From a virus: a DNA stretch of 36,307 bases. Below are positions 14,407 through 22,957 of this stretch, piece after piece. Positions within the stretch are counted from its first letter, which is position 1. Every line of letters starts with the position of its first letter. Location: the IMG/VR virus record IMGVR_UViG_3300046736_000099, positions 1 to 36,307 of that record; one strand, written 5' to 3'. Both the position numbers and the translations under genes were made by a program. Under the pieces are notes generated by a model. That model did no database searches and was not told the DNA's origin. It saw nothing but the letters and a program-made list of their open reading frames with translations.

Positions 14407-15111
14407 CTAGAACGGAATGTCGCTATCGTCGATTTCCATCGATCCGAGAGCGCCTGCCGGTTTAAGCGGTTGCGGGTCCAACGCATAACCGGTGGCCGGA
14501 TCCTGGACGGCATCCGGCACCGCCGGCCGCTGTGCCGGGCGTGGTTGCGACACCAGCGCCGGAGTTGCGGGCGCTGGCCGCGGCGGCAGTCCGGAGATGC
14601 GGCCATTTGCGGCGGCCGCCGGCACGGGTTGAGCCGCGGGCGTGATCTTCCCGCCATTGAGCGCCTTGCCGAAGAGCAGGTCAAGCTGTTTAATGGCCTT
14701 GCTGTCGGCCAGCGCTACTTCCGCCGAACTGCCCGCCTCGCGGACCGGGCCCCAATCCTCCCACAGCCCGCTGCCATCGACGCCCGGTTTGTGGTTGCAG
14801 ACCATTTCGATCTGGCCATCCAGGATGATCGGCTGCGGATAGCGCGGATCAAGCTGCATGAACTTGTCGCCTGTGAATCCGAGCGCGCGAAGGTCTTCCG
14901 CGGCCCACTCGGCTGTGTTCGCGTTGATTACGCGCTTGTACGTCCGGGTGTACTTGTTGGTCAGTTCCACCCATCCGCTAGGTTCCATGATGTACTCGAC
15001 CCGGAAATCACAGAAGAACTGGGAGTTGCCTCTCGAAGTGACCGAGAATCCCTGGTGGCCGGTAAACGCGCAGGCGTAACGGCCGGGTTTATAGAACGGT
15101 CCGCTAGCCAT
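14407..15111 (-). CDS. SSB-like recombination accessory protein (DUF669-like)
   Basis: This 234-aa protein starts MASGPFYKPGRYACAFTGHQGFSV and has a beta-rich N-terminal half (about 1-130). A long Pro/Ala-rich linker follows, and the last residues are EIDDSDIPF. That acidic end closely resembles the tail of single-strand DNA-binding proteins, which recruits partner enzymes. Placement behind a Sak4-like ATPase is typical of DUF669-type phage proteins thought to act as SSB. ATG at 15111 overlaps the ATPase gene by eight bases; longer frames are shadows. DNA binding is inferred, not shown. Confidence 0.72.
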   Translation of the reverse strand: MASGPFYKPGRYACAFTGHQGFSVTSRGNSQFFCDFRVEYIMEPSGWVELTNKYTRTYKRVINANTAEWAAEDLRALGFTGDKFMQLDPRYPQPIILDGQIEMVCNHKPGVDGSGLWEDWGPVREAGSSAEVALADSKAIKQLDLLFGKALNGGKITPAAQPVPAAAANGRISGLPPRPAPATPALVSQPRPAQRPAVPDAVQDPATGYALDPQPLKPAGALGSMEIDDSDIPF

Positions 15112-15997
15112 TGGCGACACCCGCTTCCCTGGCCGCCTTCGCGGCGGCGACGAACGCGCCCCAGGTCTCGAGCGCCGAGGATCCGCACTCGATCTCCGCC
15201 GGCAGGCCGAGCCGGTTTTTGGCATCCCAGGCCGCCGTGCGCTGCGTCATGAGGATCCGCTCGACACCGCCGACAGCCTTGGCGCGCTTGGTCGGGTCCG
15301 TTTCCTCCTTGCCGTTCTTGCCGACCACCATGGTCTGGTAATGACCGAACAGAACGATGTCGGCCCACTCTTTGGTGAGCGCCCATGTTTTGTCGTGCAT
15401 CTTTGTCTGGTACCGGTCGTAGTCGGAACCCTCGGGATTCTTAAAGTTCTTCACCTGGGTATGGCACAACAGGATGATCGACATCCGTTTCTCGGTTCGC
15501 AGCCGGTCCAGTTTCGAGAGAAACTCGCGCCAGGGGGCGAGCGATGTTTCGAACCCTTTATGGAAACCCATGAACCCGCGCTCGCCCCAGTCGCCGCCGT
15601 ACTCGGTGTCGCAGGTGTACTCGTGGCAGAGCCGCTCGATGCCGTTGACGGTGTCGATCGCCAGCGTCCGGTAGGAATGCTCCTCAGTCAACAGGAAGTC
15701 CAACTGGCTGTTCACGTCCTGCCAGTTCTGCGCCGCGTTAGGGAAATGCGGCGTCTCGGGTAGCTGGTTGGCGTCGATCAGCGTTTCCAGCCCGGTCTCC
15801 CCACGGGCCTGAATGAAAATGACTTTCGGCGCCATCGCCGCGAAGCTCGTCTTACCCCACCCTTCGGTGCCGTGGAGGATAAGGCGATTAGGAAGGCCGG
15901 GACCTTTCCCGGTGATGTCGCCGAGTGAATATTTAGGCGCCAGCGGTGGCTGTGCCGGTCCGCCCTGCCGGCGCGCCGGTAGCGTGGGTGTTGCCAT
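15104..15997 (-). CDS. Sak4-like RecA-fold ATPase (recombinase)
   Basis: This 297-aa protein has Walker A at residues 43-51 (GTEGWGKTS) and Walker B at 111-119 (TLAIDTVNG, D115). The later LLCHTQVKNFKNPEG stretch fits the phage AAA_24/Sak4 single-strand annealing-type recombinase family. It should work with the SSB-like protein and the nuclease on either side in double-strand break repair and replication restart. ATG at 15997 follows AGGAGATGCAAC. The first 65 bp overlap the tail of the nuclease gene in another frame. Confidence 0.85.
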   Translation of the reverse strand: MATPTLPARRQGGPAQPPLAPKYSLGDITGKGPGLPNRLILHGTEGWGKTSFAAMAPKVIFIQARGETGLETLIDANQLPETPHFPNAAQNWQDVNSQLDFLLTEEHSYRTLAIDTVNGIERLCHEYTCDTEYGGDWGERGFMGFHKGFETSLAPWREFLSKLDRLRTEKRMSIILLCHTQVKNFKNPEGSDYDRYQTKMHDKTWALTKEWADIVLFGHYQTMVVGKNGKEETDPTKRAKAVGGVERILMTQRTAAWDAKNRLGLPAEIECGSSALETWGAFVAAAKAAREAGVANG

Positions 15998-17027
15998 GTT
16001 GCATCTCCTTGATAGTGGTGAAATAAGCCGCGAGCGCCTTGTGCCAGAGCGTGCCGAAGGCGAGTGTTTCGATCTCGTCCAGATCGGCGGTTTCAATTCC
16101 CAGATCGTAGGCCAGGTACTCTTTGCGCCGGCACAGCTGGAAAGTGCGGATGCGCGAATTGGTGAGGATCGAGCGGCCGCCCTGCTGATCGTCGAAAACG
16201 GGCAGCTCGCCGTGAACGTACTCCTTCGGCTTCCATTTACCGGAGTCCGCCGAATCGTGGCCGGAACAGATCGGCAGGTACATGCAGGCCCGGCCGTAGT
16301 TCATGCAGGCGCCGGAGTTGCGGCCGCGGCGCTTGCTGACTCTCGCTTCCCGGAACTCCTGCCCGTTGTCCCAGAGCTCTTCGGCATAGGTGAGGAGCTG
16401 GCCCTGCAGGCGGGTGATGCGCCGCCGCTGGAAGTAGCGGCCCATGTTCTCGCCGGTGCATTCGGCGATGAGCCGGGCCTCATACAGCGGCAGCGACTCA
16501 CGAGTATCGGCCAGGGCGGCCTGGATGGTGTCCGCCGGGAACGGCGCGCCGAAGTACGTGCCCTCGTTCTCGAGCGTCTTCTGTTCGGCTTTCGTAAGAG
16601 CCCGCGGGCGGATGCCGGGCTTGCGCATCACATCCCAGATGGCCCAATTGGCCTTTTCGCCGTTGATGTGTTTCAGGAGCAGGTAGTGATCGAGCTGGGA
16701 CTCGACCTCGAGCACCTTCCAGTACGTGTCGCCGGCATCGTCGATGGCGTCCGACGTCGTCTTATGATCCATGATGCCCGGGCCTTGGGCGTCTTCCATT
16801 TCGACGTCGATGATTCCGCCGTTGATGAACGTGCGGGACCTGGCGCCGGTGCCGGGATTGAAAAGCGGGGAGGATATAAACTCCTCCACTTCCCGGATCT
16901 GGAACTGATTCCAGGTCGAGCCATAGCGGTAGTCGTAGCCGACGAGCATGGCGCGGACGGTGGCCTGGCGGATCGAGTACTCCGGCTCGGCGTCGACGAC
17001 GGCGATGGCGGCTTCAAGCGGCGTCAT
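15933..17027 (-). CDS. Iron-sulfur PD-(D/E)XK nuclease, apparently circularly permuted
   Basis: This 364-aa Cas4/AddB-like exonuclease carries D74 (GGIIDVE), D87-H88-K89 (IMDHKTT), Q111-x3-Y115 (SQLDHYL) and a cysteine cluster C241-x6-C248-x5-C254. In related phage nucleases the segment SRI-x-T-x5-C-x-RK-x-Y-x-AYDLG, followed by FGT-x2-H, forms the N terminus. Here it lies at residues 290-333, after the natural end (VHGELP), with C299 and H329 intact. The N terminus starts where that segment normally ends. All four cluster cysteines are present. It probably resects DNA ends for the Sak4-like protein. It starts at ATG 17027 after GGGAG. Confidence 0.85.
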   Translation of the reverse strand: MTPLEAAIAVVDAEPEYSIRQATVRAMLVGYDYRYGSTWNQFQIREVEEFISSPLFNPGTGARSRTFINGGIIDVEMEDAQGPGIMDHKTTSDAIDDAGDTYWKVLEVESQLDHYLLLKHINGEKANWAIWDVMRKPGIRPRALTKAEQKTLENEGTYFGAPFPADTIQAALADTRESLPLYEARLIAECTGENMGRYFQRRRITRLQGQLLTYAEELWDNGQEFREARVSKRRGRNSGACMNYGRACMYLPICSGHDSADSGKWKPKEYVHGELPVFDDQQGGRSILTNSRIRTFQLCRRKEYLAYDLGIETADLDEIETLAFGTLWHKALAAYFTTIKEMQHGNTHATGAPAGRTGTATAGA

Positions 17028-19702: not shown

Positions 19703-22700
19703 TTACTTCCCGCCGTCCTTCTCGGTCTCCTGCTCTTTCTCGAGCTTGTCGATGATCGTCATAAGGTTGTTAAACGCGACCGTTGCCGCGGCCTTCTGAC
19801 CGATCGGTATTTTCATGCTGGTCGTTAACGCCCGCGATGCCCGCGGCGAATAGAGCATCTTGGCGAGCACCGGGTTGGCCAGGACCATCGCCACACCCGT
19901 CATGGGATTAGTGAGCACCATCCCGGCCTGCGCGGTAAACGAGCCCACGTGCGCGGTCCCGGATGGGTTGGGGTTTCGCCCGAACATCTCACCCGCCTGG
20001 AAGAAATTGTCCAAGTCTTTGATGATCGCCGGGTCCTTAAACAGAATCTTCTTACTTTCCGGCCCCAGTTCTTTCCAGCGTTTTGCAAGCTTTTCGCTGC
20101 CTTTAAACTCCCCGGTTTTGCTCCCCTCCTCGATCAGCTTTTCCAGGTACGCCCGGCCAACTTTCGGTATCTCCGGCCCGGCACGGCCGGCGATATCCTT
20201 CAGGAACTCAATCCCGCTGTCGCCGGCGTAGGTTAACTGGTTGAACGCCTGCACCGGCTCTTTACTGAGCCTGGACGTCAAATCCGAGTGCATCTTCGCC
20301 GACTCAAAATACTTTGTGATGTCGGCGATCAGTTGAGGGCTCTTGAAGAGCTCCAGTTTCGACTGCGGCCCCAGTTGCTCCCAGCTATTGGCAATCGACT
20401 GGCCGACGTTAAACTCCCCGGTCTTGCTCGCATTCTGCAGCAGTTCCTGGAGATATGCCCGGCCGACTTTCGGTATCTCGTGCGGCGTCTGCCGGGCTAT
20501 ATCGCGCAGGAAGTCGATACCGGTATCACCGGCGTAGGTCAGCTGATTGAATGCCTTTACCGGCTCCTTGCTCAGTTTCGCCGCCAGGTCTCCCTGCGTC
20601 TTTGCGACCTTAAAGAAATTCGAGATGTCCTGAATCAATAGCGGGTTTTTAAAGAGCGCGGTCTTCGTTCCCGGTCCCAACTGCTCCCAGTTACTCAGGA
20701 TCGACTGCCCGACATTGAACTCTCCGCTTCCCTTCGCCTTCTCGAACAGACCCTGCAGGTATGCCCGGGCCACCTTCGGCATCTCGCCAGGCGTTTGAGT
20801 CGCTACGCCACGTAGCAGGTCGATGCCGCTGTCCTTGGCATAGGTCAATTGTCGAAACAGCTGCACCGGCTCGCTCGATAACTGCCCTTGCAGATCACTA
20901 TGCTCAGCGGCGCGCGCAAAGGCATTCTCCAACGCCTGGACGTTAGAGCGGCCCCCGAACAAAGCATCTTTCGTATCGGGTCCGAGCTTATTCCACTTCT
21001 CCAGCCAATCACCCGCGCCCTTCTTCTCCAGTAACTCGTCCAGGTAGGCTCGCCCGACTCGCGGTATTTCGTTCGGCACCTGCTCCATGGTCTGGCGCAC
21101 CAGGGCAATTCCCGAATCCCCGCCGTAGGTCATCCGGTTATAGGCGTCGACCGGCTCTCCCCTCTGTCCGACCACCTTCTCCCGCACGCCGGCGGTCGTG
21201 TATTTCTCCGCCGTCGCCTTGTTGCCAAGCTTGTAAGCTTCTACCGCCTCCGGTCCCGCCGCGCTGATCCCCTCCGTTACCGCATCCTCCAGGTGTTGCA
21301 CCGCCTTCGCCGCTAAGCCTTGCGAGAGCGTCTTTAGTTCCGGCAGATCGGCGCCACGCGCCGCGGCTTTTATCGCCGACAGACTCTCCCTGGCCGCACT
21401 CGATGCTATGAAATCATCCGCCGCGAGAATGTTATTCAGAGCCAGCAACCCGGTGCTCGCGCGTCGCTGCGCTACAGGAATCGTAGCCTCGAAATGCTCA
21501 ACAATTGGCTTTAACGCTGTTTTAGTGGCGCGGAGATCCACCGGCAGCGCTACCTCCTTCATGATCGGCGCCTCGGCCACGTTCACACCGGCCGACGCCG
21601 CCGTTCGCAGAACCGATGCCTGCTCATGCGGCTGTAACTTGGCAAAGGGCTTGTCGGCGAGGCTCATCGCAAACGCATCTAAATTTGCCTGCACATCCGG
21701 GGTGCGCCCGGTCGAGACCGGCACTTGCCGCGTATTCGCCGGATCCGCTTCAAATGCGCGTAGGGCATCAAAATGGCTGTCGGCCGTCGTGTCGTGCTTG
21801 AGAATCTCTGCTTTCAGCGCTCCACCCAGTGACTCGCCTGCCTGCTGTGGCGTGATCGGCTGCGGGTACACCTTATCCCTTGCCTGTTCGGCTTGCTGCT
21901 GGATCGCCCTGGCCTGCCCTTCGAGCGCAGTTCGAACGCCTCCACCCGCCTGTTCCGGCGTCACTGGCTGCGGGTGCACCTGGCCAGCCAGGACATCTCC
22001 TTGTCCCGCAAGCGCCGTCGATTTACCGCGTACAGCCTGCTGCACGCCCTCACCGGCCTGCTCCGGCGAAATAGGCTGTGGATGCACCTTGTTCGCAAGG
22101 ACTTCCCCTTCACGCGCGAGAGCAGTCGATTGGCCGCGCATAACCTGCTGTACCGCCTCGCCCGCCTGTTGAGGAGATATAGGGGCAGGGTTCACCGTAT
22201 CGGCGATCTGCCCCCCGGCACCCTCGAGCGCCGCCATCTGGTTCGCCTGCGCCCTCTTACTGATCCCGGCGGAGCCGAACTGGTTCTGCGCGATCGTCTT
22301 AACGTTCTGTACGAGCTTACTGCCGCTGCGTGTCGCCAGATCAACCGGGACACCCTGCGCGTCCGCCCACGCAACGGCGGCGGCCTCAGCCGGATTCAGT
22401 TGCGGCTTCACCGCTGGCCCTACGGTTACTGATCCCTTCCTCTGCATCGTTAACGGCGCCGCGAGTTGTAGTGCGAGCCCGGCGGTCTTGCCCAGCCCTT
22501 CGGCATACCTGCCGGCCACCAGATCATCGCCGGCATCGTTAACGGCCGGTCCAAACAGCGGGATCGCATACCCGAGCGCATAGCGCGACGCGTCCAGGTA
22601 ATTACCCTTCGACCAGGCGTCCCGCGCTTTGTCGAGTTGATCGGCCTGGGCCTTAAGAATTCCCGAGCCCATCTGCCCGACCTTCTCGACCGGATTACTG

Positions 22701-22957
22701 CTGGTCAGGGCGCCCACCAATGGGAACGGATCCATCGTATCCGCGGCCGCGCCGATGAAACGCCCGGTGGCATTCAGCGCCGAGTCGAACATGCCGGGTT
22801 GCTCACCTCCGGTCACAGATGCCTGCTGCGGCCCGGCGGGCGCTGTGTCGACCACTTGGGCGCCTCTCGCCAGCGCCGCATCCAAGTTCGCCCTGGGGAT
22901 CGCTCCCACCCGCCCGTCCGGCAGACGAACCCGTACCTTGTCCTGTGGTTCCGCCAT
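19703..22957 (-). CDS. Large DNA-ejection / internal virion protein with two repeat arrays
   Basis: This 1084-aa protein sits where P22 has gp16 (609 aa). Residues 1-55 resemble short N-terminal segments of other internal virion proteins (VRVRLPDGRVGAIP...NLDAALARGA). Residues 255-398 hold four 36-residue repeats with (V/I)xPQPI(S/T)PxQAGE. About 603-1000 hold four repeats of about 100 residues with LTYAGDSGI, EIPKVGRAYL and WEQLGP. The C terminus has small hydrophobic segments (TNPMTGVAMVLANPVLAKML). In P22 the ejected proteins form a channel across the cell envelope. A muramidase motif is not evident. Translation starts one base after the previous stop, behind GGAGG. Confidence 0.8.
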   Translation of the reverse strand: MAEPQDKVRVRLPDGRVGAIPRANLDAALARGAQVVDTAPAGPQQASVTGGEQPGMFDSALNATGRFIGAAADTMDPFPLVGALTSSNPVEKVGQMGSGILKAQADQLDKARDAWSKGNYLDASRYALGYAIPLFGPAVNDAGDDLVAGRYAEGLGKTAGLALQLAAPLTMQRKGSVTVGPAVKPQLNPAEAAAVAWADAQGVPVDLATRSGSKLVQNVKTIAQNQFGSAGISKRAQANQMAALEGAGGQIADTVNPAPISPQQAGEAVQQVMRGQSTALAREGEVLANKVHPQPISPEQAGEGVQQAVRGKSTALAGQGDVLAGQVHPQPVTPEQAGGGVRTALEGQARAIQQQAEQARDKVYPQPITPQQAGESLGGALKAEILKHDTTADSHFDALRAFEADPANTRQVPVSTGRTPDVQANLDAFAMSLADKPFAKLQPHEQASVLRTAASAGVNVAEAPIMKEVALPVDLRATKTALKPIVEHFEATIPVAQRRASTGLLALNNILAADDFIASSAARESLSAIKAAARGADLPELKTLSQGLAAKAVQHLEDAVTEGISAAGPEAVEAYKLGNKATAEKYTTAGVREKVVGQRGEPVDAYNRMTYGGDSGIALVRQTMEQVPNEIPRVGRAYLDELLEKKGAGDWLEKWNKLGPDTKDALFGGRSNVQALENAFARAAEHSDLQGQLSSEPVQLFRQLTYAKDSGIDLLRGVATQTPGEMPKVARAYLQGLFEKAKGSGEFNVGQSILSNWEQLGPGTKTALFKNPLLIQDISNFFKVAKTQGDLAAKLSKEPVKAFNQLTYAGDTGIDFLRDIARQTPHEIPKVGRAYLQELLQNASKTGEFNVGQSIANSWEQLGPQSKLELFKSPQLIADITKYFESAKMHSDLTSRLSKEPVQAFNQLTYAGDSGIEFLKDIAGRAGPEIPKVGRAYLEKLIEEGSKTGEFKGSEKLAKRWKELGPESKKILFKDPAIIKDLDNFFQAGEMFGRNPNPSGTAHVGSFTAQAGMVLTNPMTGVAMVLANPVLAKMLYSPRASRALTTSMKIPIGQKAAATVAFNNLMTIIDKLEKEQETEKDGGK
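19960..21151 (-). repeat. Four long tandem repeats in the ejection protein
   Basis: About 300-bp units encode four successive copies of a 95-103-residue helical module. The best-conserved blocks are QLTYAGDSGI, EIPKVGRAYL and WEQLGP-x-(S/T)K, and copies two to four share L-SKEPV at the joints. The first copy is the most divergent. Confidence 0.85.
21764..22195 (-). repeat. Four 108-bp tandem repeats in the ejection protein
   Basis: Four consecutive 36-codon units run from residue 255 to 398, each starting V-x-P-x-PI(S/T)P-x-QAGE and continuing into an A/Q-rich helix. The fourth unit diverges in its second half. The unit length fits a repeated helix with a proline-marked turn. Confidence 0.88.

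Follow-up and report, generated by a model that had tools for sequence, protein, structure and literature searches.

Can a phage exonuclease carry its N-terminal segment behind its own C-terminal end, and if so, is this order a genuine circular permutation of the protein? The question is raised by a gene in the window analyzed here, that is, a complete IMG/VR virus record of 36,307 bases, a metagenome-derived virus contig that encodes an integrase, a portal, a terminase, and a major head protein. A preliminary description of this DNA, made from its letters alone, had claimed that the usual N-terminal segment of a PD-(D/E)XK nuclease sits after the normal C-terminal end within one continuous frame, the strand of which was left unstated. 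The frame is indeed continuous, as the gene forms a single minus-strand ORF that runs, uninterrupted by stops or frameshifts, from an ATG at 17027 to its stop codon at 15933 (table 1), and it is the sole source of PDDEXK_1 matches in the window. Elsewhere on the contig, a 1084-aa ORF without PHROG match (19703–22957) possibly encodes a tail or receptor-binding protein.

Table 1. Features of the nuclease gene and of its downstream neighbors in the window.
Feature	Position	Strand	Basis
Circularly permuted PD-(D/E)XK nuclease CDS, 364 aa	15933..17027	minus	ORF and full-length homologues
Body, residues 3-284 (PHROG 1218 positions ~88-329, all after the usual N-terminal segment)	16176..17021	minus	profile searches
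Presumed catalytic D74 (motif II, GxxD), invariant	16806..16808	minus	alignment; role by analogy with Asp123 of Cas4 Pcal_0546 (PMC4176176)
Presumed catalytic D87-H88-K89 (motif III, "DHK"); D87 and K89 invariant	16761..16769	minus	alignment; role by analogy with Cas4
QxxxY motif, Q111-Y115, both invariant	16683..16697	minus	alignment; motif named in PMC4176176
Three-cysteine block C241, C248, C254, invariant (C-terminal block of canonical members)	16266..16307	minus	alignment
Join, residues 276-284, canonical C-terminal "VHxELP" end to canonical N-terminal "LTNSR" start	16176..16202	minus	comparison with canonical sisters
Moved segment, residues 285-347 (canonical N-terminal segment, PHROG 1218 positions 9-64)	15987..16175	minus	profile searches
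C299, fourth presumed Fe-S ligand (N-terminal Cys of canonical members)	16131..16133	minus	alignment; Cys64 / Cys32 in Cas4
H329, presumed metal-ligand His (FGT..H)	16041..16043	minus	alignment; His94 / His62 in Cas4
Sak4-like ssDNA-annealing AAA ATPase, directly downstream of the nuclease	15104..15997	minus	AAA_24 E 3e-35; PHROG 124 E 6e-30
Probable ssDNA-binding protein with acidic tip "IDDSDIPF", at the place held in Tunturi phages by the annotated SSB	14407..15225	minus	similarity to Tunturi SSB

The Two Parts of the Nuclease Stand in Swapped Order

Profile searches bear out the claim of a displaced segment. Compared with PHROG 1218 ("exonuclease"), residues 12–154 of the window nuclease match positions 88–226, when residues 287–343 match positions 9–64, and each part, when aligned separately, finds the family at a level clearly beyond chance: The first 285 residues alone match positions 88–226 (E 1.8e-9), and the C-terminal segment alone matches positions 9–64 (E 5.5e-8). 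In the relatives from Tunturi phages (see below), the match of the body extends as far as position 329. The motif stretch SRI..C.RK.Y..AYDLG..FGT..H, previously placed at residues 290–333, spans residues 291–329 within a profile extent of about 285–343, and in the predicted model (see below) the helix of the moved segment runs up to residue 347. Alignment of permuted proteins with 17 canonical phage proteins by HHalign gave the same picture, the body matching template columns 96–301 (E 2.5e-23) and the segment columns 8–63 (E 1.5e-12), swapped relative to the body. After re-ordering, the alignment yields a single collinear match of 268 columns (E 9.9e-36), and the window protein, re-ordered by hand, covers positions 3–246 of the 247 of Pfam PDDEXK_1 in one collinear stretch.

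Both canonical parts are thus present and complete in one frame, neither being duplicated, and their order is swapped, which is what defines a circular permutation at the level of sequence. As a whole, the window protein matches PHROG 1218 (E 4.6e-19) and PDDEXK_1 (PF12705; 36 bits for a cut-off of 22) and retains the motif residues of the family without its canonical order; on this profile evidence, it is a permuted variant of the PHROG 1218 / PDDEXK_1 exonuclease family. The window and Tunturi proteins gave no match to the Pfam Cas_Cas4 model (DUF83, PF01930) at E values up to 1, and for the nuclease an NCBIfam search returned no useful match and a search of PDB sequences nothing relevant. 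Overall, the reading that we favor, with a probability of about 0.93, is that a phage Cas4/AddB-type PD-(D/E)XK exonuclease has been circularly permuted in nature, and for this enzyme we infer the folding, the cluster, and the role.

One way for this reading to fail was that canonical relatives already have the order of the window protein. This is not the case: The PHROG 1218 and PDDEXK_1 profiles, like the actinophage and Bacillus phage proteins, all have the segment before the body. The PHROG 1218 exonucleases annotated as "Cas4 family exonuclease" in these phages (PermaG, BSTP12, Atuin, and others) share the same two parts and the same motifs, and genes of the PermaG/BSTP12/Atuin type are, as at the permuted locus, followed by a RecA/Sak4-like AAA ATPase, but they keep the normal order; accordingly, PermaG and two further canonical proteins (L053 and L055) each match PHROG 1218 in one collinear stretch.

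Four IMG/VR sister loci, L121, L122, L124, and L126, also encode the segment first and the body second. Relative to the window protein, L121 and L122 show about 26% identity in the body, and segment identity ranges from 32% to 55% over the four sisters. The closest canonical relatives among the loci collected are L124 (body 34% identity, E 7e-33; segment 35%) and L126 (body 31%; segment 55%), both in normal order, and these two have a C-terminal end motif in common with the permuted proteins. Their C-termini read "AHEELETE" (L124) and "HPELTSGD" (L126), the segment of L126 starts with LLTHSRLSTYRTC ("LLTHSRLSTY..C"), and the permuted proteins read ..VHGELPVFDDQQGGRSILTNSRIRTFQLC.. across the join. 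From the comparison of these ends with the join, it follows that the join falls at the meeting point of the canonical ends: A short linker connects the former C- and N-termini, and the chain now starts in the loop that canonical members have after the FGTxxH helix.

The Permuted Order Is Shared by Isolates and Environmental Viruses

A continuous frame on a metagenome-derived virus contig could in principle be an artefact of assembly or annotation, through the joining of two genes or the mis-assembly of a repeat. Isolates refute this explanation. Indeed, the isolated Acidobacteriota (Tunturiibacter) phages Tunturi_1 and Tunturi_2 encode full-length relatives with the same order (44–45% identity), and scans of viral contigs with protein alignments gave many further permuted members. 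With separate profiles for body and segment, 100 loci were classified as having the body then the segment in one ORF, as opposed to 13 with the segment then the body; as some contigs are represented repeatedly, the figure to quote is the 59 distinct proteins, window included, counted by their last 300 residues. The widest of these scans used motifs located in the body and hence selected for neither order. The same fused single-frame order is thereby found in two isolates and in dozens of independent contigs, and purifying selection acts along the whole chain, so that the chance of an artefact is practically negligible. For the moved segment, dN/dS lies between 0.10 and 0.20 in five of six pairs, versus 0.05–0.18 for the body, the sixth pair being saturated in dS; the segment is under purifying selection at its present position.

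Used as a single query, the window protein yielded no member in scans of viral and genome contigs, the patterns being too specific, when the alignment-based scans succeeded. One permuted-gene contig stems from a Planctomycetaceae MAG, plasmid records gave no match to the nuclease, and among the annotated phages searched, the permuted nuclease occurs only in the two Tunturi phages, where it is plainly named "exonuclease". In one virus (L031:3310-4330; also L119 and L120), a frame break interrupts the permuted gene in its body part. In predicted-structure collections, the BFVD entries A0A6J5NSY1 and A0A6J5MFE0, both from uncultured Caudovirales, match the model of the permuted protein nearly end to end; for A0A6J5NSY1, named "PD-(D/E)XK nuclease superfamily" in UniProt, the match is full-length with a TM-score of 0.76. 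On the basis of these models, the two are probably further permuted members.

As judged from these sequences, the permuted order is a conserved trait of a large and diverse virus lineage rather than a one-off, and its carriers are widespread environmental viruses of bacteria. Its fixation across such a lineage shows that this nuclease can do without a direct connection from the FGTxxH segment to the body. The nuclease family itself is already known and it is the topology that is new: In a literature search, with subscription journals mostly outside its coverage, a permuted Cas4, AddB, or PDDEXK nuclease was nowhere described, and the paper on the Tunturi phages does not mention the exonuclease. 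There is also a warning for annotation here, as collinear profile searches give two partial matches and same-order structure searches see only the body.

Origin of the Permuted Order

The usual route to a circular permutation is duplication, fusion, and trimming. By this route, the permuted gene would likely have arisen through tandem duplication and fusion of a canonical gene, followed by the loss of the outer halves. The loci classified include no protein with the segment at both ends and no tandem segment–body–segment intermediate, the segment of one locus (L024) running to the contig edge. In the Tunturi phages, a 66-aa ORF overlapping the nuclease end was considered as a relic of a second nuclease copy downstream, and was rejected for showing no similarity to the body profile.

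Historically, one half of the duplication route amounts to the joining of a body with the initial part of another nuclease gene, and the segment is recognizable by itself. One may therefore conceive of a body devoid of its own N-terminal segment and fused to such a part, in which the extra piece would be regulatory and not structural. We regard this as very improbable, since the segment holds the fourth cysteine and the metal-ligand histidine, both invariant in 33 permuted proteins, and is under selection about as strong as that on the body, when a second copy of either part was not seen in the loci examined.

As to the number of events, a tree inferred without the closest canonical sisters unites the permuted proteins in one clade (support 100/99). 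With these sisters included, two changes of order are most parsimonious in most bootstrap trees, and in some trees the canonical sisters fall within the permuted group; branches are long, and the data do not reject a single clade (p-AU 0.435). The simplest account is that of a single permutation. It is rather unlikely that the order changed more than once, be it through two independent permutations or through a permutation that was later undone, via recombination among phage genes, in the lineage of L121, L122, L124, and L126.

Predicted Fold and Putative Iron–Sulfur Cluster

That permuting these ends is structurally plausible had been argued in the preliminary description from the meeting of the N- and C-terminal cysteines at one cluster, and this is indeed the situation in canonical Cas4, where an N-terminal cysteine is followed by three C-terminal ones and all meet at one cluster (PMC4176176). 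Given 33 permuted sequences, AlphaFold2 predicts one compact domain with confidence (pLDDT 89.3, pTM 0.85), in which the moved segment mostly exceeds a pLDDT of 90 and disorder is restricted to the last 17 residues. The permuted chain would thereby fold into the usual nuclease domain.

Comparison with solved structures points in the same direction. In VIA-align, residues 1–258 of the permuted model align to residues 77–267 of ACE1, an Argonaute-associated Cas4 family protein (9iab; also 9iac), with 174 aligned residues at 3.3 A, and residues 1–257 align to residues 840–1039 of AdnA (9np6; Z 9.3), with 177 aligned residues at 3.1 A. The Z of the ACE1 match is 7.8, and as a Z below 8 can by itself be due to chance, the evidence lies in the contrast between ranges in these sequential alignments: The model of a canonical control (L053), albeit poorer (pLDDT 65.6), aligns to residues 0–267 of ACE1 (Z 14.4) and 791–1039 of AdnA (Z 16.2). 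The nuclease domains of ACE1, AdnA, and AddB share the fold of the body (Z 7.8–9.3), but nothing at the beginning of the permuted chain corresponds to their first 50–76 residues; in the predicted model, this unmatched N-terminal part is the part found at the permuted protein's end. The confident single-domain model and the complementary ranges in order-dependent alignments would both fit a fold like that of the unpermuted form.

A single-chain prediction is also compatible with a domain swap, in which the order is truly permuted and the C-terminal segment completes the neighboring subunit of a swapped dimer or ring. The sequence facts would agree with such an oligomer just as well, the join has a short linker of about nine residues, and the Cas4 protein SSO0001 does form a ring of ten subunits (PMC4176176). 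However, the confident placement of the moved segment within one chain speaks against a swap, and since the canonical end cysteines share one cluster, a short linker should suffice; we thus consider a swap quite improbable and retain a permuted domain completed within its own chain.

In the alignment of the 33 permuted proteins, D74, D87, K89, Q111, Y115, and H329 are invariant, and so are C241, C248, C254, and C299, the four cysteines that are the hallmark of iron-staple nucleases; all four, together with H329, stand where the preliminary description had put them. The predicted iron–sulfur character is well supported by these invariant cysteines, which would together hold one cluster, and D74, D87, K89, Q111, and H329 would form a metal-dependent active site. 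The CRISPR-associated Cas4 proteins SSO0001 and Pcal_0546 likewise have four Fe-S cysteines, a metal-ligand histidine, D..(E/D)xK, and QxxxY (PMC4176176), but with the first cysteine and the histidine at the chain start instead of the chain end. As all ligands lie within 59 consecutive residues of the permuted protein, the predicted cluster would hold together a local module at the C-terminus and cannot staple the two chain ends, so that nature here provides a test case for the "iron staple" idea. Among canonical actinophage relatives, three (L032, L035, and L036) are missing at least one cysteine of the C-terminal block of three, and the cluster may be absent in this branch.

Genomic Context and Likely Role

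Wherever the sequence continues for about 400 bases or more beyond a permuted gene, a Sak4 homologue is encoded on the 3' side of this gene, usually with an SSB-like gene behind it. Canonical L121, L122, L124, and L126 are also near a Sak4 homologue, their nuclease likewise preceding Sak4 and SSB. Considering these conserved neighbors together with the retained counterparts of the Cas4 metal ligands (His, Asp, Glu/Asp) and QxxxY motif, the simplest reading is end resection for single-strand annealing recombination, and the nuclease is probably the DNA-end-resecting enzyme of a phage recombination module: It would resect DNA ends, the single strands of which would then be paired by the adjacent Sak4-like annealase and the SSB-like protein.

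The permuted enzyme might instead have been recruited to another role, for example counter-defense or replication-fork processing, and no longer act as an end-resecting exonuclease. Other roles have been reported for Cas4-like phage proteins, such as the Cas4 of a Campylobacter phage, a precedent that we take from its citation in PMC5704561. Still, the catalytic motifs are kept and the gene occupies the same slot as in its four canonical sisters, in light of which such a recruitment seems unlikely and end resection remains the role that we favor.

The disordered C-terminal tail of the nuclease overlaps the start of the Sak4-like gene in another frame (15933–15997, 65 bases). Two of the three pairs compared show a dN/dS greater than 1 in this tail (57 and 105 sites), which probably reflects a constraint that acts on the overlapping frame instead. 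Further downstream, the SSB-like gene (14407–15225) has no Pfam or PHROG match of its own, and its translation probably begins at an internal ATG ("MASGPFYKPG").
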